A stretch of 64,000 nt of DNA from Stappia indica (lineage in GTDB: Bacteria; Pseudomonadota; Alphaproteobacteria; Rhizobiales; Stappiaceae): positions 4,059,001 through 4,123,000 of the forward strand of contig NZ_CP046908.1 of NCBI RefSeq assembly GCF_009789575.1, written 5' to 3'. Both the position numbers and the translations under genes were made by a program. The notes beneath the pieces were generated by a model. The model saw nothing but the letters and a program-made list of their open reading frames with translations. It was not told the DNA's origin and made no database searches. Positions 2,822 through 43,103 of this stretch are shown here, in pieces (positions within the stretch are counted from its first letter, which is position 1; every line of letters begins with the position of its first letter).

Positions 2822-4182
2822 CCGACGCGACAATCCCGGCATCCGCCGCCGGCAGCGGGTCTGCGTCTGCCCGCAGCTCACTCCTCACGGTCGACACCCA
2901 TACCAGGCGTCGTCGCAGTTCCGAGGCTCGCTTCCGTCTGCTCGGACTGCTGGCGGTCAGCCTCGGCGTGCTGGCCCTGCTGGGCCTGCTTGCCTCCATC
3001 TTCTCAAACGGGCTGTCCTCTTTCCAGCAGACCTACATTCGGCTCGATATCCATCTCGATGCCGCCCGGCTGGACAAGGCTGGCGACCGAAACCCGGACC
3101 AGATCGCCAAGGTCTCGACATTCGGTTACGCGCCGCTGATCCAGAAGGCGATGGAAGAGAAGATGGCGGCGGCTGGCATCGCTATCGAGGGCCTTTCCGC
3201 GAGCGACGCCGCCGATCTGATTTCGAAGGAGGCGCCTGCCGAGCTGCGTCGCTATGTCCTCGCCGACCCCTCTCGCATCGGCCAGACGGTGCCGTTCGAC
3301 CTGCTCGCCTCGGGCCGGATCGACGGCTACTACAAGGGCCGGGTAACGATGGCCAGCGCCGAGCTCGACCGGAACGTATCGCCGCAGCAGCTTCAGCTCG
3401 CCGACCAGCTCAAGGACGCAGGGATCCTGGAGACCAGGTTCAACTGGAGCTTCTTCACGGCTCCGGACGCCTCGGATACGCGGCCCGAGGCCGCCGGTCT
3501 GGGAGTGGCGATCCTCGGTTCGGCCTACATGATGCTGATTGTGCTGGCGCTGTCGCTGCCGATCGGTGTCGCCGCCTCGATCTATCTCGAGGAATTCGCG
3601 CCGAAGAACCGCTTCACCGACCTGATCGAGGTGAACATCGCCAATCTCGCGGCGGTTCCCTCCATCGTCTTCGGTATCCTCGGCCTGGCGGTCTTCATCA
3701 ACTTTGCCGGCCTGCCGCAGTCAGCTCCGGTCGTCGGTGGCCTGGTGCTGACGCTGATGACCTTGCCGACCATCATCATTGCCACCCGTGCCTCGCTGAA
3801 AGCGGTGCCGCCCTCGATCCGCGACGCAGCTCTCGGCGTCGGCGCCTCGAAGATGCAGTCCGTGTTCCACCACGTGCTGCCACTGGCCATGCCGGGCATC
3901 CTCACCGGCACGATCATTGGCCTTGCCCAGGCGCTGGGCGAGACCGCCCCGCTGCTTCTGATCGGCATGGTGGCCTTTGTGCGGGAGTATCCGGGCGAGC
4001 CGCCGGCGGGCTTCTTCGACCCTGCCTCGGCCCTTCCCGTCCAGGTCTACAACTGGACGCAGCGAGGAGACCCGGCCTTCGTCGAGCGTGCGTCCGGTGC
4101 GATCATCGTCCTGCTGGTGTTCCTCGTGCTCATGAACCTGATTGCGATCGTCCTGCGCCGTCGTTTCGAACGTCGCTGGTAA
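2818..4182 (+). CDS. pstA: phosphate ABC transporter permease PstA
   Basis: This 454-residue permease is the second membrane subunit of the Pst complex. One membrane helix near residues 40-65 is followed by a roughly 150-residue periplasmic region. The conserved permease core follows from about residue 235, with [12 protein letters not shown], the phrase [18 protein letters not shown] and the coupling loop [18 protein letters not shown]. The start overlaps the pstC stop as ATGA. The N-terminal extension makes it longer than the approximately 300-residue E. coli protein, as is usual in this bacterial class. pstB starts 16 bases after the stop. Confidence 0.93.
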
Positions 4183-4198
4183 GGAGGCTCTCCAAGCC

Positions 4199-4996
<798 letters not shown>

Positions 4997-5064
4997 TCTG
5001 GACCAGCCGCGGGAACAGACGGGATGACGCGCGCGCCTCGCCGCGCCCCGAATGGAGAAGAAAC

Positions 5065-5775
5065 ATGAGCCAACATACCGTTTCGTCGTTCGACGAGGAG
5101 CTGAAGGACATCGCCGGCCGCGTGTCGGAGATGGGCGGCCTCGCCGAGATGATGCTGAACGATTCCGTGCAGGCCCTGGTGCGCATGGACAAGGAGCTGG
5201 CGCGCCGCGTCATTGCGCAGGACAAGCGCGTCGATGCCCTGCAGTTCGAGATCGAGGAGCAGGCGATCCTGATCATCGCTCGCCGCCAGCCGGTCGCCAG
5301 CGACCTGCGTGACGTCATCTCGGCAATGCGCATTTCCAACGATCTGGAGCGCGTCGGCGACCTCGCCAAGAACGTCGCCAAGCGCGTCATCGCCATCGAG
5401 GGCACCTTCGACTCCAAGAAGTTCGCCCTTGGCGTCGAGCACATGACCGAGCTCGCCCAGAGCCAGCTCAAGGATGTGCTGGACGCCTATGCCGGGCGCG
5501 ACGGCACAGCGGCAGCCGCCGTGCGCGATCGCGACGACGAGGTCGATGCGCTCTACACCTCGATCTTCCGCGAACTCCTCACCTACATGATGGAGGATCC
5601 GCGCCAGATCTCGGTCTGCGCCCATCTGCTGTTCTGCGCCAAGAACATCGAGCGCATCGGCGATCATGCCACCAACATCGCCGAGAACGTCATGTACATG
5701 TCGACCGGCGTGCTGCCGACCGACGAGCGCCAGAAGGTCGACGAGACCGGCATCGAGACCGATACGGCGTCCTGA
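5065..5775 (+). CDS. phoU: phosphate signalling complex protein PhoU
   Basis: This 236-residue cytoplasmic protein links the Pst transporter to PhoR and keeps the Pho regulon off when phosphate is plentiful. It is an all-helical protein made of two similar three-helix bundles, each with the E(R/K)(I/V)GD metal-binding motif: LERVGDLAKNVAKR near residue 95 and IERIGDHATNIAENV near residue 200. The ATG at 5065 follows GGAGAAG and gives the usual family length; a longer reading frame upstream lies inside pstB and is not expected to be translated. It is 68 bases downstream of pstB. Confidence 0.95.
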   Translation: MSQHTVSSFDEELKDIAGRVSEMGGLAEMMLNDSVQALVRMDKELARRVIAQDKRVDALQFEIEEQAILIIARRQPVASDLRDVISAMRISNDLERVGDLAKNVAKRVIAIEGTFDSKKFALGVEHMTELAQSQLKDVLDAYAGRDGTAAAAVRDRDDEVDALYTSIFRELLTYMMEDPRQISVCAHLLFCAKNIERIGDHATNIAENVMYMSTGVLPTDERQKVDETGIETDTAS

Positions 5776-5912
5776 GGGCGTTCAGGCGAACTGAGCATGG
5801 CGCGGGCGGCACTGTCGCCCGTCGCCGCTGACAACGAGAGCCGGCAAGGCGGCGCGAGCGAAAAGCCGCGCCGATGCCTCCCGGCCGGGTCGATTGGACA
5901 AGGGTACCCCAT

Positions 5913-6614
5913 ATGCCGAAGGTCCTGATTGTCGAGGACGAAGAGCCTCTGGTGATGATGCTGCGCTACAATCTCGAGGCCGAGGGCTACAAGGTCGAGA
6001 CGTGCATGCGCGGCGACGAGGCGGATCTTCTCCTGCGCGAGAGCCAGCCGGACCTGCTGCTTCTCGACTGGATGCTGCCGGGTCTGTCCGGCATCGAACT
6101 GTGCCGCCGCCTGCGCTCGCGTCCCGAGACCGAGCGCCTGCCGGTGATCATGCTCACCGCGCGGGGCGAGGAGCAGGAGCGCATCCGCGGCCTTGCCACC
6201 GGCGCCGACGACTACGTGGTGAAGCCCTTCTCGATCCCCGAGCTGATGGCGCGCGTGCGGGCCATGCTGCGCCGGGCAAAGCCGGAGGTGGTGTCCTCTC
6301 TGCTGCGCGCCGGCGATCTGGAACTCGACCGGGAAACCCACCGGGTGCGCCGTTCGGGGCGCGAGATCCATCTCGGTCCGACCGAGTTCCGCCTGCTGGA
6401 ATTCCTGATGACGTCGCCGGGGCGCGTCTTCTCGCGCGAGCAGCTGCTGGACGGTGTCTGGGGACACGACGTCTATGTCGACGAGCGGACGGTCGATGTT
6501 CACGTCGGCCGGCTGCGCAAGGCCATCAACCGCGGCAAGGTGCCGGACCCGATCCGCACCGTGCGCGGCGCCGGCTACGCCTTCAACGACCAGTTCGCCG
6601 CCGCCGCGTCCTGA
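5913..6614 (+). CDS. phoB: phosphate regulon response regulator PhoB
   Basis: This 233-residue OmpR-type regulator activates Pho-box promoters, including the one before pstS. The receiver domain (about 1-120) has acidic residues D9-E10, phospho-acceptor D52 in LLLDWMLPG and the conserved lysine in DYVVKPF. The C-terminal winged helix (about 130-228) holds the recognition-helix region VDVHVGRLRKAI. The ATG at 5913 starts the typical MPKVLIVEDE. The gene lies 137 bases after phoU and is closed by a strong hairpin at 6670-6715. No second Pho box is evident in that 137-base gap. Confidence 0.95.
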   Translation: MPKVLIVEDEEPLVMMLRYNLEAEGYKVETCMRGDEADLLLRESQPDLLLLDWMLPGLSGIELCRRLRSRPETERLPVIMLTARGEEQERIRGLATGADDYVVKPFSIPELMARVRAMLRRAKPEVVSSLLRAGDLELDRETHRVRRSGREIHLGPTEFRLLEFLMTSPGRVFSREQLLDGVWGHDVYVDERTVDVHVGRLRKAINRGKVPDPIRTVRGAGYAFNDQFAAAAS

Positions 6615-29071: not shown

Positions 29072-29549
29072 AATCCTGTCAAGCGGGGACAACAGGGATG
29101 GCGGGGAGGGCGGGACGGGCGAAGGAAGGACGCGCGGCGAAGCGGCGCGAACTGCCCGAAACGGCGGCGCAGCGGCAGGATCTTCCGGCTAACCGTCTGA
29201 AAACAGGCGTGTTTTGGTCGCTACGGAAAATTGAGAAATTTTGCGCGGAATTTTGCAAAATCGCGTCTCGAAATGCTCGAAAATTGAGAAAGCCGTCGCA
29301 AACGCACTGAAATCGGCCGTTCGCCCGAAATCGGCAGGGGAAGCCGCGGCACTGGTCAGGAGAGGGACCGGCTACCCGCCCGGCCGCCGACCGGGCCGCC
29401 TGTCGGGCCAAGAGGGAAGGACCGGGATGTTATCCCCGGTCCGACTTTTTGTAGGAAAATGCCGCGTTCAGACCAGTGCCGCATTACGGCGGTGAGCCCG
29501 AAGAGCGCAGTTGCCAGTCTAGGTCAAAAGTGCGGCGAGAGGGGAAGCG
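29072..29549. other. 478-bp gap with an orphan hairpin-terminator
   Basis: No convincing coding frame lies between the tetR operator and tRNA-Gly. The middle (about 29220-29300) is AT-richer than the surroundings. On the plus strand an isolated Rho-independent terminator stands at 29419-29450, with several GC-rich hairpins just before it. A small RNA ending there is possible but unproven. Confidence 0.4.
29419..29450 (+). terminator. orphan Rho-independent terminator
   Basis: GGACCGGG at 29419-29426 pairs with CCCGGTCC at 29435-29442, and five T residues follow at 29446-29450. The nearest plus-strand gene upstream ends at 27346, with three minus-strand genes between, so no annotated transcript explains it. 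Confidence 0.6.
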
Positions 29550-29623
29550 TGGAGCGGGTGAAGGGAATCGAACCCTCGTCACTTGCTTGGGAAGCAAATG
29601 CTCTACCATTGAGCTACACCCGC
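29550..29623 (-). tRNA. tRNA-Gly (anticodon CCC)
   Basis: Read on the minus strand from 29623, the cloverleaf is complete: acceptor GCGGGTG pairing with CACCCGC, D arm GTAGCTCAATGGTAGAGC, anticodon stem TTTGC/GCAAG with loop TTCCCAA, T arm with GGTTCGATTCC, and an encoded CCA at 29552-29550. The anticodon at positions 34-36 of the loop is CCC. A truncated relative of its 5' half lies at 33649-33686. Confidence 0.95.
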
Positions 29624-29633
29624 AACGCCCTCC

Positions 29634-29662
29634 TGACTACAGTTTCGGCGTGACGGCTTCAA
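29634..29662 (-). promoter_or_regulatory. promoter of tRNA-Gly
   Basis: On the minus strand TTGAAG (29662-29657) and TAGTCA (29639-29634) are 17 bases apart, ten bases before the tRNA 5' end. If the island model below is right, this promoter was brought in by the island. Confidence 0.5.
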
Positions 29663-29696
29663 GCTGAAAGTGGTCAGACTGCGCCGTTTCGCGGTG

Positions 29697-31157
29697 CTAG
29701 GATGAGTGACCCTTACCGCGAAGGAAGCGTTCGATCTCTGCCTCGGCCAATTCCGCCAACTCGTTCTCAACCTCGTCTGCCTTTGCCCACAAAGAGAATG
29801 CTTCTTCGGCGAGCGACGCGATATGCTTCTCTTTTTCTGCTTCGAGACGAGGGACGGCGAAGTCCTTGAGGTCTTCGACTTCGATGTGAGGAATACTGGA
29901 ACCGTAGGCAAGAGACTTGGTTCTTGGCCTGCCGAGTTCGGGATGGCTCATTGCGACGTATAGATAACCGGGCGCTATCGTATCGCCTGCGGCAATACGG
30001 ATAACATCATCCGAGACGACTTTGCCTTCGTGCTGCTCGGTCGCAATCGCGACGGAACCCAACAAACCATACACCTGCCCGGATCGAGACATCATCAGCC
30101 AACCCGGTTTCACATAGCCATTGTTTTTGTCGGCGATGCCTGCCGCGGAGATTCGGCGAGCATAGTCAGGATTGATCTCAAATATCTGAGAGCTGTCTAT
30201 CAGGGACACCCCATCTTCGGCGGGAACACGCTTAAAGCGATTTGGTAGCCAAACATCGCACTTCGCATCGCGGAGCGATGTCCAACTAGAAGCACCTTTT
30301 CGCAGTCTGGTTTCGATTTCTGACTTTTGGGGGTTGTGACTCCAAGCATCAAATCGACGGCGATTGCCAAACAAACAATCGCTTGCGCGGCGCACAAATG
30401 CTGCTTCGTCGTCCGCCCCTGCTGTATTGCCGAAATTGCCGCCGAAAGCGGCCTCGGCTTCCTCCATTTTCTTGCGCGCGGAATTTCGGCAAGCAATGAC
30501 TTGATCAAAGCCGTCGTTGCAATCGGCAAGCATCTTCGCATTGCTTGGCTCGATTAGCGGGAGCGCGTCGAGGTGATGAGTTTCGAGGTGTTTGATGATA
30601 TGCCCATACTGTGCTGCCATCATCATGTCGCGCACCGAAGGAGCGCGAAGGTAGGCATAAACCCAACCCCGCCATGATGGGTCAATCGCATCAATTCTTA
30701 GAAGGTCGTGAGAGACCAAAATTCCGTCGATTGACGAATGGGCAAGTGTCGCCCTGCCTACGCTGCCCGAGCAAGTGACGAGTATAGTGCCGTGCTTTAC
30801 AAACCTCTCAGCGTGATCAGCCGTTCGGTTTAGCGACAGCCACTTGCGGGGAATAGGTCGAACATCGAAAACCTGAGTGGCGGCAAGAAACGGCGTTCCG
30901 AAGTCCGCGCTAACTTGGATGCCTTTAAGGCGTGATGGCTGCCAAGTTCGGGCCTTTTCGGATAGCTGCCCCCATCCCGACGACTTGGATTCAATCGAGA
31001 GCCGCGTGCCGAAGCCACTGGCAAGGAAGTTCTCGGCCTCCATCCGACGCCCGCCGCCGAACAGCAGCGAGGCACGCAGGGACGACGACTTGACCTTGTG
31101 CCAAGGCCAATCCGTCTTTGTCTCGCGCGGCGGGGTTAGTCTTGCTCGTAGAGCCAT
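29697..31157 (-). CDS. type I-like restriction-modification specificity subunit (S)
   Basis: This 486-residue protein directs the methyltransferase-nuclease to its DNA target. It shows the two-TRD plan of HsdS: a first recognition domain (about 40-215) containing TILVTCSGSVGRATLA, a helical spacer (about 220-240, RNSARKKMEEAEAAF), a second domain (about 270-450) with PGWLMMSRSGQVYGLLGSVA, and a C-terminal helix rich in Glu and Lys. The matching phrases SGSVGR and SGQVYG mark the equivalent positions in the two domains, so the target should be bipartite. Its start overlaps the end of the methyltransferase gene by 22 bases. Confidence 0.82.
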   Translation of the reverse strand: MALRARLTPPRETKTDWPWHKVKSSSLRASLLFGGGRRMEAENFLASGFGTRLSIESKSSGWGQLSEKARTWQPSRLKGIQVSADFGTPFLAATQVFDVRPIPRKWLSLNRTADHAERFVKHGTILVTCSGSVGRATLAHSSIDGILVSHDLLRIDAIDPSWRGWVYAYLRAPSVRDMMMAAQYGHIIKHLETHHLDALPLIEPSNAKMLADCNDGFDQVIACRNSARKKMEEAEAAFGGNFGNTAGADDEAAFVRRASDCLFGNRRRFDAWSHNPQKSEIETRLRKGASSWTSLRDAKCDVWLPNRFKRVPAEDGVSLIDSSQIFEINPDYARRISAAGIADKNNGYVKPGWLMMSRSGQVYGLLGSVAIATEQHEGKVVSDDVIRIAAGDTIAPGYLYVAMSHPELGRPRTKSLAYGSSIPHIEVEDLKDFAVPRLEAEKEKHIASLAEEAFSLWAKADEVENELAELAEAEIERFLRGKGHSS

Positions 31158-33112
31158 GACCGGAACGCCTGTGCGATTTGGAGGGTGTTGTCGTCGATGA
31201 CTTTGCGCTGCGTGCGCTGCTTCTTGTAGACGGGTTTGCCGTCCTCATACTCCTTGAGGGTTTCTTCGACTTCCTCGACAATCTCATTGCCTTTGCGGTC
31301 GCGCACATAGGTGACGTTGCCGCGCTTGTCGTGACCGATGTGGTTCGCCACGGCCATGAAGACCTCGTAATCGTTCAGGCGACCCGCTGCCGTCTCGACG
31401 GCAATCTGCTCGTCCGTCTTGCGTTCGAGGACGAGCACGCTCGTCTGCACGCTGACATGCGGCTGGAAGGTGTCGGGGTGCAGGTCGATGCTCGCGAGCA
31501 CGCGCGTGTTCTGCAAAATCCACTCGCGCACATAGCCAAGCCCCGGCGATCCGAGGATGCCGTCAGGCAAGACGATGGCGCAGCGACCCGAGCCGGGTTT
31601 CAGCAGTTTGATGCACCGCTCGATGAACAGGATTTCGGGCGGCTGCGATTTCTGAACGGCGTCAGTTTTCGTCCACTTGTCGGTGTCGGCATCGTAGGCC
31701 CATGTGTGCCCGAGGTCGTATGCCTCCAAGATCGACGGTTCGTCGATGGGGATTTTCGAGCCGAAAGGCGGGTTGGTGAACAGCAGATCGACCTGACCCA
31801 TGATCTGCCGATCCCGAAGGCTGTCCTCCCATGTGGCAGGGGCCTTGAGGGAGTTCGCCTGATACAGCCCGCCAGCACCGTCATTGTTCATGACCATGTT
31901 CATCTTGGACGCTTTGACGAGGTTCGGGTTCAGGTCCATGCCAATGATGTAGTTCTGCGCGAAACGGCTGACACGCTGACGGATCGCCGTTTCTGCGCGC
32001 TCAACGTCTCCCCATTTGCTGATCTCGGCAGACCTGATCTTTTCGATCACATAGTTCATGGCTGTGATCAGAAAGCCCCCGGTCCCACATGCCGGATCGA
32101 GGATCATTTGCCGCTCACCCGGATCAAGCATCGCGACGGCCATTTGGCAGATGTTGCGAGGGGTAAAGAATTCGCCGCGATCCCCGCGCAGGTTCGACCC
32201 GACGATTTCCTCGTAGGCGCGCCCCTTCACGTCGATGTCGCTTTCGAGCAGCGAATACATCTGCAACTGGCTGACGATGTAGGCGCGAACGCCGTCATTG
32301 AGTTCGACGACTTCGTTTTCGCGGAAGATCGTGGGATATTCCGCTTTCACCTCGTCAAACAGGCGGGCGATGCGCGCCTTGACCTTGAGTTGCCCGTTCA
32401 TGCCGTGGCGCTCTTTCGAGGTCGCGTAGAATTCCACCTCGTCAGAGCTTCGCTCGTCGTGGATTTTGCAGAAGATGATCTTGAGCAGTTCCCAAAACGC
32501 TTCGGGCTTCTGTAGCCCTTGGTTTCCGGCGATGTAGTTATGGCAGCGGCGGAACGCGAAAAGCAGCGCATCGGACGACGCCGCCTTCAACTGATCGAAG
32601 CGCGGGCGTTCGACTTCATCCTCTGTCCGGCCTTTGCCGGGAATGTCGGGGATTTCCTCGAATTTGACGGAGCCATTGGTATCGACTCGCCGATAGCAGT
32701 AGCGTTCGATCCCATTCGTCCACATGCCATAGGCAACATTCGGGCACGCCGCCATGTAGCTTTGAAGCTGGCCGACGCCTTCCTTGCGGTCTGATGATTT
32801 GATCTTCTGCGACTTGCACTCGATGATGATGCGGGCGCGATCCTGATCGTGCTTGTCGCCTTCGTCGAAAATGACGAGGTCAGCCCTTGGCTTACGCGAG
32901 CCAAGGCGCAGAACAAATTCAACGGACACCTCGGCTTTCTCATACCCATATTCGCGCACAAGCGACTTTGCGATCTCTTGGCGGACGTATTCCTCGGGCG
33001 TCTCATTCCGCTGAGTGATGCCGTCGATGTAGTCGAGGATTTTTCCCTGCTGAACGATAACGGCAACGGGGCGCGCGGCCGTCTTTTGAAACTCGGCAGC
33101 TTGGACGGCCAT
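31136..33112 (-). CDS. nuclease-N6-adenine methyltransferase fusion (HSDR_N_2 + HsdM-like)
   Basis: This 658-residue protein combines an N-terminal restriction nuclease domain with an HsdM-type methylase. The nuclease has a PD-(D/E)xK core: D78 in RADLVIF and E98/K100 in IIIECKSQ, as in the HSDR_N_2 group. A helical linker with FFTPRNICQMAVAM leads to SAM-binding DPACGTGG (about 339-346) and catalytic NPPF (447-450), which methylates adenine N6. There is no separate HsdR helicase, so cutting would come from the fused nuclease, as in BcgI-like type IIB or type IIG systems. ATG 33112 follows the small upstream gene by two bases. Loss of the nuclease function cannot be excluded. Confidence 0.85.
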   Translation of the reverse strand: MAVQAAEFQKTAARPVAVIVQQGKILDYIDGITQRNETPEEYVRQEIAKSLVREYGYEKAEVSVEFVLRLGSRKPRADLVIFDEGDKHDQDRARIIIECKSQKIKSSDRKEGVGQLQSYMAACPNVAYGMWTNGIERYCYRRVDTNGSVKFEEIPDIPGKGRTEDEVERPRFDQLKAASSDALLFAFRRCHNYIAGNQGLQKPEAFWELLKIIFCKIHDERSSDEVEFYATSKERHGMNGQLKVKARIARLFDEVKAEYPTIFRENEVVELNDGVRAYIVSQLQMYSLLESDIDVKGRAYEEIVGSNLRGDRGEFFTPRNICQMAVAMLDPGERQMILDPACGTGGFLITAMNYVIEKIRSAEISKWGDVERAETAIRQRVSRFAQNYIIGMDLNPNLVKASKMNMVMNNDGAGGLYQANSLKAPATWEDSLRDRQIMGQVDLLFTNPPFGSKIPIDEPSILEAYDLGHTWAYDADTDKWTKTDAVQKSQPPEILFIERCIKLLKPGSGRCAIVLPDGILGSPGLGYVREWILQNTRVLASIDLHPDTFQPHVSVQTSVLVLERKTDEQIAVETAAGRLNDYEVFMAVANHIGHDKRGNVTYVRDRKGNEIVEEVEETLKEYEDGKPVYKKQRTQRKVIDDNTLQIAQAFRSWLYEQD

Positions 33113-33114
33113 GA

Positions 33115-33309
33115 TCACTCTCCCTCTTTGGCGACCTTGGGCCACTGCTCCGTGACGGCCTTCTCGACCAGTTGCACCATCCAATCTTGGACAGATGTGT
33201 CCTCGGCTGCGACGACAATCCTGAGCCTTCGGTGAAGGTCAGGTTCCAGCCTCACATGGACCATGCGCGGCCCATCAGACCGCTTTGACTTGGTGGCGGC
33301 GCGAGCCAT
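33115..33309 (-). CDS. small ribbon-helix-helix (Arc/CopG-like) protein
   Basis: This 64-residue protein starts with a basic arm (MARAATKSKRSDG). A beta strand RMVHVRLE, a helix DLHRRLRIVVAAED, a turn and a second helix SVQDWMVQLVEKAV then give the standard ribbon-helix-helix DNA-binding pattern. A GAGGG ribosome site precedes the ATG at 33309. It is two bases upstream of the methyltransferase gene, so it is probably co-transcribed. It may repress or time the restriction operon, or be a stray antitoxin; no toxin gene is visible. Confidence 0.7.
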   Translation of the reverse strand: MARAATKSKRSDGPRMVHVRLEPDLHRRLRIVVAAEDTSVQDWMVQLVEKAVTEQWPKVAKEGE

Positions 33310-33648
33310 CGGACAACCCTCGTCACGTTTGTGATTCTTGTAACACCGCGACTCCGGTAGCACTAGAGGAAAGTGAAGTCTTATGAATGGCTTGGCGCTT
33401 GGGTCGCGGTTGGCGACAGCAAAAACAAAAGGAGGGACAGAGTGCTTCCATTTCGGGTGTCAGTAGATCGCTCAACGGCAGGTGAGCGTCCGCCAACCTC
33501 AGACGCATATCAACCTCTAAGTGCGTGTGAGCATCTCTTGTCACCACTTTGTAAAGGATTTGAGTTCGCTGATTGAGGCGCAATACAACAGGACTGCGTA
33601 GACGCTGATTTGAATGTTCCAAAATGTGTCGGATGATAAACGCGTGGA
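33310..33648. other. island end without a recognised gene
   Basis: The stretch should hold the promoter of the restriction operon. Two short frames exist (33373-33576 plus, 33323-33622 minus), but neither has a good ribosome site or recognisable motifs. Nothing here resembles an integrase. It may contain decayed remnants of the rest of the element. Confidence 0.4.
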
Positions 33649-33686
33649 CTTGGGAAGCTCTCGCTCTACCATTGAGCTACACCCGC
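33649..33686 (-). pseudogene. truncated tRNA-Gly(CCC), 5' half (attachment-site remnant)
   Basis: Read on the minus strand from 33686, the first 24 bases equal those of the intact tRNA-Gly at 29623. Four mismatches follow in the anticodon stem, then GCTTCCCAAG is again identical, for 34 of 38 matches. The T arm and 3' acceptor are absent, so it cannot be a working tRNA. Confidence 0.85.
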
Positions 33687-33697
33687 ATCTCGGCCTC

Positions 33698-33727
33698 TAT
33701 ATCGGCGCGGGGCGGGCGGGCTGTCAA
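33698..33727 (-). promoter_or_regulatory. promoter in front of the truncated tRNA-Gly
   Basis: On the minus strand a consensus TTGACA (33727-33722) and a GATATA-type -10 (33703-33698) are 18 bases apart, 11 bases before the tRNA remnant. The GC-rich spacer looks like host DNA, so this may be the original tRNA promoter. Confidence 0.5.
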
Positions 33728-33866
33728 GCGCCTCGCGGGCGGCTGGGGAGGGCTCTCCCGCGAAATTGCTTTCTCCTTGATTTTGCGGTGCCGATGACCA
33801 CTTCTCGTGCCGACCGGCGGCCCCGCCGGTGCGCGCGCCGCACAAAGCGTTCTGGAGAGTAAAGAC

Positions 33867-42992: not shown

Positions 42993-43005
42993 GGATCGTC
43001 AGATT

Positions 43006-43057
43006 CCGTGGTGATTTGAGCCGGCCGGCTTGCAGCCACGTTAAACAAGTCGCTAAA
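43006..43057 (+). ncRNA. SAM-II riboswitch
   Basis: The sequence matches the compact SAM-II aptamer: CCGTGGTGATTTGAGCC, then the paired CCGGCTTGCAGCCACG, the conserved TTAAA, and finally AAGTCGCTAAA, which folds back to make the pseudoknot. SAM-II binds S-adenosylmethionine and lowers expression of methionine genes in alphaproteobacteria. It lies directly before metZ, the expected target. Confidence 0.92.
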
Positions 43058-43074
43058 CAGGCCGGGTTGCAAAG

Positions 43075-43103
43075 ACCCCGGCCCATTTACGGCCGGGGTT
43101 TTT
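43075..43103 (+). terminator. Rho-independent terminator between the riboswitch and metZ
   Basis: CCCCGGCC (43076-43083) pairs with GGCCGGGG (43091-43098), followed by five T residues at 43099-43103. An upstream GGCCGGGT at 43060-43067 can pair with the left arm instead, so a terminator/antiterminator switch is possible. It lies 17 bases before the metZ start. Confidence 0.82.

Follow-up and report, generated by a model that had tools for sequence, protein, structure and literature searches.

We analyzed a window of 64,000 nucleotides (C1:4059001-4123000) from a genome (G000) that consists of a single contig of 5.1 Mb. The window holds one tRNA, a tRNA-Gly(CCC) on the complement of 29550-29623, which was found with both ARAGORN and Rfam (73.8 bits). 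Read along the minus strand, a host promoter region is followed by a 38-nt fragment of a tRNA-Gly(CCC), about 340 nt of further sequence, genes for a ribbon-helix-helix (RHH) protein, a predicted methyltransferase (M) and a predicted specificity subunit (S), a second promoter region, and then the complete tRNA-Gly(CCC). The features are given below (G735 and G1123 are genomes from another order of the same class, and L171 is an IMG/VR record):

33694..33728, minus strand: host tRNA-Gly promoter region, with CTTGACA from 33728 and GATATAG from 33703, which now fronts a dead fragment; recognized from upstream sequence common to the intact tRNA of the four closest relatives, with the boxes read by eye
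33649..33686, minus strand: 5' fragment of the host tRNA-Gly(CCC), the attL remnant; identical to gene positions 1-38 in relatives
33650..33656, minus strand: anticodon loop TTCCCAA, the probable crossover core; the host fragments of G1123 and G735 also end there
33521..33645, minus strand: attL-side arm and first codons of a probably lost integrase (ATG at 33534, stop as the sixth codon), from the alignment with G1123
33115..33309, minus strand: RHH protein of 64 aa (PF23807, 27.2 bits against a cut-off of 27; searched from 33312)
31136..33112, minus strand: M gene, 658 aa, with HSDR_N_2 and N6 adenine methyltransferase domains (PF13588 and PF02384)
29697..31157, minus strand: S gene, putative specificity subunit of 486 aa (PADLOC mad5 and Specificity_I models)
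29632..29720, minus strand: end of the S gene and the promoter region that arrived with the tRNA; 82% identical over 89 bp to L171, and part of a five-locus alignment
29550..29623, minus strand: complete foreign tRNA-Gly(CCC) with stem ATTTGC/GCAAGT (ARAGORN, Rfam); 74 of 74 bases identical to G735
29448..29549, no strand assigned: left junction, placed approximately; the expected host 3' fragment is absent

A previous reading of this DNA, made from the letters alone (the sequence-only reading), had placed an intact tRNA-Gly(CCC) at 29623-29550 and a 38-base fragment at 33686-33649 on the same strand, and ARAGORN, Rfam, and the sequences of relatives all bore this out. As it had also held, the DNA between the two copies, with the M, S, and RHH genes, is low in GC (56.5% for 29624-33648 vs 68.3% for the window outside 29401-33700) and has no integrase: none was recognized among the window ORFs of at least 80 aa, and tblastn with the integrase of G1123 gave no match in 29301-33700 at E values up to 10. 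No phage genes were recognized in the island. The claim that both copies have their own promoter came out weaker. A scan for sigma-70 promoters gave no match at the host-side or the island-side place; the TTGACA and TATAGA on the host side were read by eye, and on the island side the evidence is the identity to the IMG/VR stretch.

The M protein contains the motifs ECK, DPACGTGG, and NPPF. It scores 679.6 bits with the MADS2 model (mad2), under the cut-off of 720, and the S protein, which has no Pfam match, scores 251.1 bits with the MADS5 model (mad5), under the cut-off of 400. Note that the MADS system has further genes beyond mad2 and mad5. The pair is like MADS (NCBIfam NF047738 and NF047740) in that the mad2 and mad5 models match both island proteins nearly over their full length, and unlike it in that both proteins fall under the curated cut-offs and no further mad gene was recognized in the island; among the mad models, only mad2 and mad5 matched the three island proteins in the best 25 rows. 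(A mad8 model appears in a separate model search, that of the hotspot cargo proteins.) The term "restriction system" for the M and S genes is putative, and the pair may serve in restriction or in methylation only.

The host fragment and the complete tRNA

We looked for both flanks of the island in 14 congeneric genomes, including the window's own, and compared 14 stretches from 13 relatives. As the sequence-only reading had it, the island is an inserted element: all 13 relatives, which lack it, have one uninterrupted tRNA-Gly(CCC) at the place of the fragment. The four closest of them (G001, G005, G007, and G011) have in common the host promoter region and a GAGAGC/GCTCCA stem. Both tRNA copies without inserted DNA were seen in none of the 13 relatives compared. 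Nor were the RM genes encountered at this place without the repeat: no good relative of the M gene was found in the other 13 genomes (weak ones, with 29-37% identity, occur at other places in G002 and G004).

Over positions 1-38, the window fragment matches the tRNA-Gly(CCC) of the four closest relatives exactly, with the first mismatch at position 39; the tail that follows it is not homologous to the 3' half of the host gene. The fragment is the host tRNA gene, cut at the anticodon loop (33656-33650). The sequence-only reading had put the crossover in the first 24 bases, a placement that the stem and the sequences of relatives rule out. The anticodon-stem difference that it had reported is itself real, positions 25-28 being GAGA in the fragment vs ATTT in the intact copy. 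A search with the 5' half that allowed up to three mismatches, and that misses bodies of the type found in G008, gave no further copy or fragment of the CCC type in the window and the five closest genomes. (In G008, the same upstream DNA leads into a tRNA-Gly(CCC) whose body is wholly different, followed by LmuA, LmuC, and LmuB of a Lamassu system at L071:3353-7145; this locus is possibly a second tRNA replacement at the same place.)

The intact copy is foreign to the window's order. It shares with the host tRNA its last 31 bases, together with 24 bp at the other end, and carries AAGT at positions 40-43 vs the host TCCA. All of its 74 bases are those of the tRNA of G735, and the same tRNA, as read, is present in L171 and G1123; among 397 genomes of the window's own order, the exact 31-base stem pattern occurs in the window's genome only. 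The stretch at 29632-29720 that precedes the tRNA, S-gene end included, likewise resembles the stretch before the same tRNA in L171. A rebuilt gene would keep the host TCCA at positions 40-43, and the AAGT seen there shows that the island brought a complete tRNA. Thus, where the sequence-only reading had the element supply a new promoter and a new tRNA 5' end and displace the host promoter, the part concerning the promoter stands and the restriction to a 5' end does not.

The window's genome has 44 tRNAs according to Rfam, 43 of them typed (L341 was not called by ARAGORN), and the sole Gly(CCC) among them is the island copy; there is also one tRNA-Gly(TCC) and one tRNA-Gly(GCC). Because tRNA-Gly(TCC) may read the same codon as tRNA-Gly(CCC), any dependence of the host on the foreign tRNA is putative.

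Related elements and the origin of the island

A search of 371 genomes of the order of G735 gave three matches at E values up to 1e-33, namely G1137, G735, and G1123. The first is 99% identical over 3.5 kb to L171, a record that matches the S-gene end, promoter, and tRNA of the window at 88% over 248 bp and also has a 69-bp piece of the M gene; with the pattern used, no host fragment was found in G1137 or L171. G1123 carries an intact relative. On its left side, a tRNA-Gly 5' half cut after TTCCCAA is followed by two CCTACAAA repeats and a tyrosine integrase (PF00589, Arm-DNA-bind_3, and phrog_1). The interior has a primase-like gene and genes for a portal, a terminase, a DNA cytosine methylase (Dcm), and Vsr, and on the right side a promoter region, the complete tRNA, and three CCTACAAA repeats lead up to the host 3' piece (TTTCCCAAGCTGCATACGAGGG...), in which TTCCCAA sits 117 nt after the complete tRNA. 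When joined, the two host pieces form a tRNA-Gly(CCC) that is accepted by ARAGORN and that has one mismatch in 74 to L080.

G735 is a second stripped-down case. Its native 5' fragment and arm together are 69% identical to G1123 over 173 bp, and it keeps an integrase remnant (52 residues, 63%, E value 9e-18), a piece of Dcm, the promoter, and the same tRNA; the host 3' fragment is gone. A native-type uninterrupted tRNA-Gly(CCC) is present in all six other genomes of its genus that were searched, and the 3' half of the foreign tRNA differs from this native type at 12 of 36 positions. Moreover, ACATTAAGACAGCC occurs both right behind the tRNA of G735 and, at a similar position, in L287, which is one of these six; the others have less in common with G735 there. 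In G735, too, DNA resembling that of the host therefore persists downstream of the tRNA, although the 3' half of the host gene has been lost.

In the window, the sequence after the core aligns with G1123 via ACGCGTTTA..CCGACAC to the integrase start, with a local score of 90 for the attL arm against a mean of 26.2 and a maximum of 49 in 1000 shuffles. The fact that this match runs up to the start codon of an integrase that is intact in G1123 argues that the integrase was lost rather than absent from the outset. The element, described in the sequence-only reading as integrase-free, was therefore probably not so by origin.

Other searches reached less far. Searching viral contigs and, at E 1e-40, plasmids with the integrase of G1123 led nowhere, as did a plasmid search with the island right end; the attL-arm pattern had 11 matches in viral contigs, none of them after a tRNA 5' half; and in plasmid and phage searches with the S-gene end, promoter, and tRNA, the best 20 of 140 and of 44 matches, respectively, match little beyond the tRNA. 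The record L212 has Dcm, Vsr, and a complete tRNA of another stem type, with a host-type 3' piece 80 nt further on (25.5 bits, under the Rfam cut-off). Dcm or Dcm-Vsr lies directly upstream of a tRNA-Gly(CCC) at L212:449-1797, L254:7970-9906, and L248:9224-9726 (a Dcm piece in L248).

We consider it quite likely that the island is the immobilized remnant of a phage-like integrative element that carried a complete replacement tRNA-Gly(CCC). The host tRNA-Gly(CCC) gene would have been split by a tyrosine integrase, through recombination between its anticodon loop and a short attP core, and the element's own promoter and complete tRNA, lying just after the methylation/restriction genes (an order seen in G1123 and presumed for the window), would have taken over. 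Later, attR and the host 3' fragment would have disappeared; the simplest route would be an exchange between the 3' ends of the two tRNAs, whose last 31 bases are identical. The integrase and any phage genes would have decayed. Having neither attR nor an integrase, the island would be stranded, unable to leave by the usual route, and would now carry the sole tRNA-Gly(CCC) identified in this genome.

Several observations count against this account. No phage gene was recognized in the window and the 3' fragment is absent, so that just one half of the host gene is present, and the integrase remnant comprises only the upstream arm and about five codons. Many relatives of the M gene lie away from tRNA-Gly(CCC): relatives were found at 283 genome-contig loci, and among the best 80 of these 283 the S gene adjoins in 74 and a tRNA-Gly(CCC) is nearby in none, the available flanks being short for many. 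(The M and S genes were for this reason dropped as a mark of the element.) Finally, a clean recombination between 3' ends should leave the DNA downstream of the window tRNA close to that of G005, to which it is weakly similar. In eight tests, with p values uncorrected, this DNA scored 40 against G005 (p 0.0135) and 39 against G011 (p 0.0045), G007, G001, G008, and L216 were not significant, and L171 and G735 showed no similarity; scores against 20 other genomes were at most 36. No 12-mer of the tRNA 3' half was found at 29448-29549. At 29448-29455 there is one TTTGTAGG, which is the arm repeat CCTACAAA of G1123 in inverse orientation, but this stretch can also be aligned with the left flank of the relatives. 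Given the weak downstream similarity and an arm repeat in flank-like DNA, the left join may lie in the tRNA 3' half or, by another deletion, anywhere up to about 29448.

The same arrangement could have come about through homologous recombination, if donor DNA with M, S, and a complete tRNA that originated outside the order entered the locus, with no site-specific recombination in this lineage. Host and island tRNA are identical over 24 bp at one end and 31 bp at the other, which would suit such an exchange, as would a locus that is an exchange hotspot, and the weak host similarity downstream of the tRNA would fit a join further left. At the right junction, however, homologous recombination would have had about 11 bp of identity, and that junction falls at TTCCCAA with the attL arm adjoining, as in G1123 and G735; we regard this course of events as unlikely. 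Less likely again, to the point of being improbable, is a reconstitution of the 5' half, in which the element gave the promoter and 5' half and the intact gene combines these with the host 3' half: this is how the archaeal pTN3 type works (PMC8371274, in the part available), and two viral records described below seem to have an integrase placed to suit it, but it predicts TCCA at positions 40-43, where the window has AAGT, as do the complete tRNAs of G735 and G1123, and it is at odds with the divergent 3' half in G735, so that, as far as these sequences can tell, its simple form is contradicted.

Breaks of tRNA-Gly(CCC) genes in viral contigs were sought with a pattern that required the 5' half through CTTCCCAAG and so could match no fragment with an earlier break. 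Of the 53 stretches that it matched, 46 are complete tRNAs (L208 is imperfect at its 3' end) and seven are not. The latter depart within a few bases after the pattern, and one of them, L215, still reaches the Rfam tRNA cut-off (44.2 bits). Because the pattern misses earlier breaks, the matches indicate that breaks at the anticodon loop exist and are no tally of break positions. In about 12 of the complete copies, the downstream ORF is by appearance integrase-like at its N-terminus; an integrase downstream of the tRNA is the usual arrangement. Among a subset of ORFs, Pfam (a motif regex had given none) placed an integrase downstream of the tRNA half in L204, where the catalytic domain is under the Pfam cut-off, and in L224, and upstream in L246 and in L199, where it lies just before the full tRNA. 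The record IMGVR_UViG_3300034072_001527 (L209, L246, and L221) has three tandem tRNA-Gly(CCC) copies, two of them 5' fragments, together with an HSP90-like ATPase gene, a Dcm-type methylase, and an integrase that ends 48 nt before the second fragment; methylase and integrase lie between the two fragments. This record may be a true 5'-half element, and we do not assign it to the element family of the window.

Known systems and the cargo of the locus

An integrative element that brings its own complete tRNA recalls tRNA-dependent lysogeny, which has been described for phages of Actinobacteria (Guerrero-Bustamante and Hatfull 2024, PMC10865867). As far as the available part of that paper goes, the two are alike in the tyrosine integrase, a core of about 10 bp, a host tRNA that is not rebuilt, and the carriage of a complete tRNA of the same isotype. 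They differ in that here the tRNA is tRNA-Gly(CCC), the setting is Alphaproteobacteria, methylation/restriction genes lie beside the tRNA, and the window has lost the integrase and attR. A host tRNA disrupted at a short core and not rebuilt is found with both host pieces in G1123 and with the 3' piece missing in the window, and the complete tRNA at 29550-29623 is preceded by a promoter region akin to the ones in G1123, G735, and L171. The tyrosine integrase is intact in G1123 and reduced to the arm and start codon in the window; G1123 has portal and terminase genes, and no phage gene was recognized in the window's island, which does not qualify as a temperate phage. By analogy, the window's island would have worked as in tRNA-dependent lysogeny and would then have lost attR and the integrase.

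Phage-related sequences of Sinorhizobium meliloti, in which the element's own tRNA replaces that of the host (PMC11476347), also belong to Alphaproteobacteria, and there the inactivated host tRNA is replaced by one nearer to the tRNAs of unrelated Alphaproteobacteria; the available part of that paper makes no mention of tRNA-Gly(CCC), restriction-modification cargo, or an integrase-stripped remnant. According to the portion available of PMC12429752, the same group had earlier seen replacement for prophages like Mesorhizobium phage vB_MloP_Lo5R7ANS; the paper itself reports prophages without tRNA replacement. Integration of the archaeal pTN3 kind into the 5' half resembles the window in that a promoter carried in by the element drives the final tRNA; there the original tRNA copy is restored, in the extract available (PMC8371274), whereas the whole gene is foreign in the window. 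In the literature on tRNA-dependent lysogeny and alphaproteobacterial islands that was searched, as far as its texts were accessible, we found no report of the window's element family or of attR loss between tRNA 3' ends.

A stranded element of this kind would explain a defense island at a tRNA with no integrase and without the usual 3' repeat, as well as a host tRNA gene swapped for one from another order. It would add a family that carries methylation/restriction genes to tRNA-dependent integration, and it suggests a route of mobility loss, seen in two lineages of the class (the window and G735). As a search rule, one would look for a tRNA 5' fragment broken off at the anticodon loop, with a tRNA that has the same isotype and a different stem close by. 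More tentatively, and short of calling it probable, we suggest that an alphaproteobacterial family of tRNA-carrying elements inserts defense genes beside a replacement tRNA-Gly(CCC) and is repeatedly fixed via recombination between the 3' ends of the two tRNAs. If so, the attachment site would vanish, the host tRNA would be seamlessly swapped for a foreign one, and the defense genes would be kept through linkage to the sole copy of that tRNA.

The six closest genomes have six different cargoes at the tRNA-Gly(CCC) locus, five of which match PADLOC models:

Window: MADS-like pair
G007: MkoC-like helicase
G001: PDC-S28
G005: CBASS
G008: Lamassu
G011: two proteins without a match

All five relatives carry their cargo on the 3' side of the tRNA, and it thus probably arrived by a different route; a comparison of 12-mers gave no tRNA 3' half where the cargo ends (in G008 the contig stops there). 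The locus is like a known hotspot with varying antiviral systems, to the extent that this is described in the source material available, in that its position also holds varying systems, and unlike it in being a chromosomal tRNA locus with no phage backbone recognized in the window. The two proteins of G011 are encoded by adjacent genes (L070:2682-3674 and 3661-6150; 330 and 829 aa). Neither matched any Pfam, PADLOC, or NCBIfam model, and the pair is a candidate for an unknown defense system. Elsewhere in the window, at 42998-43077, lies an ordinary SAM_alpha riboswitch (86.9 bits).
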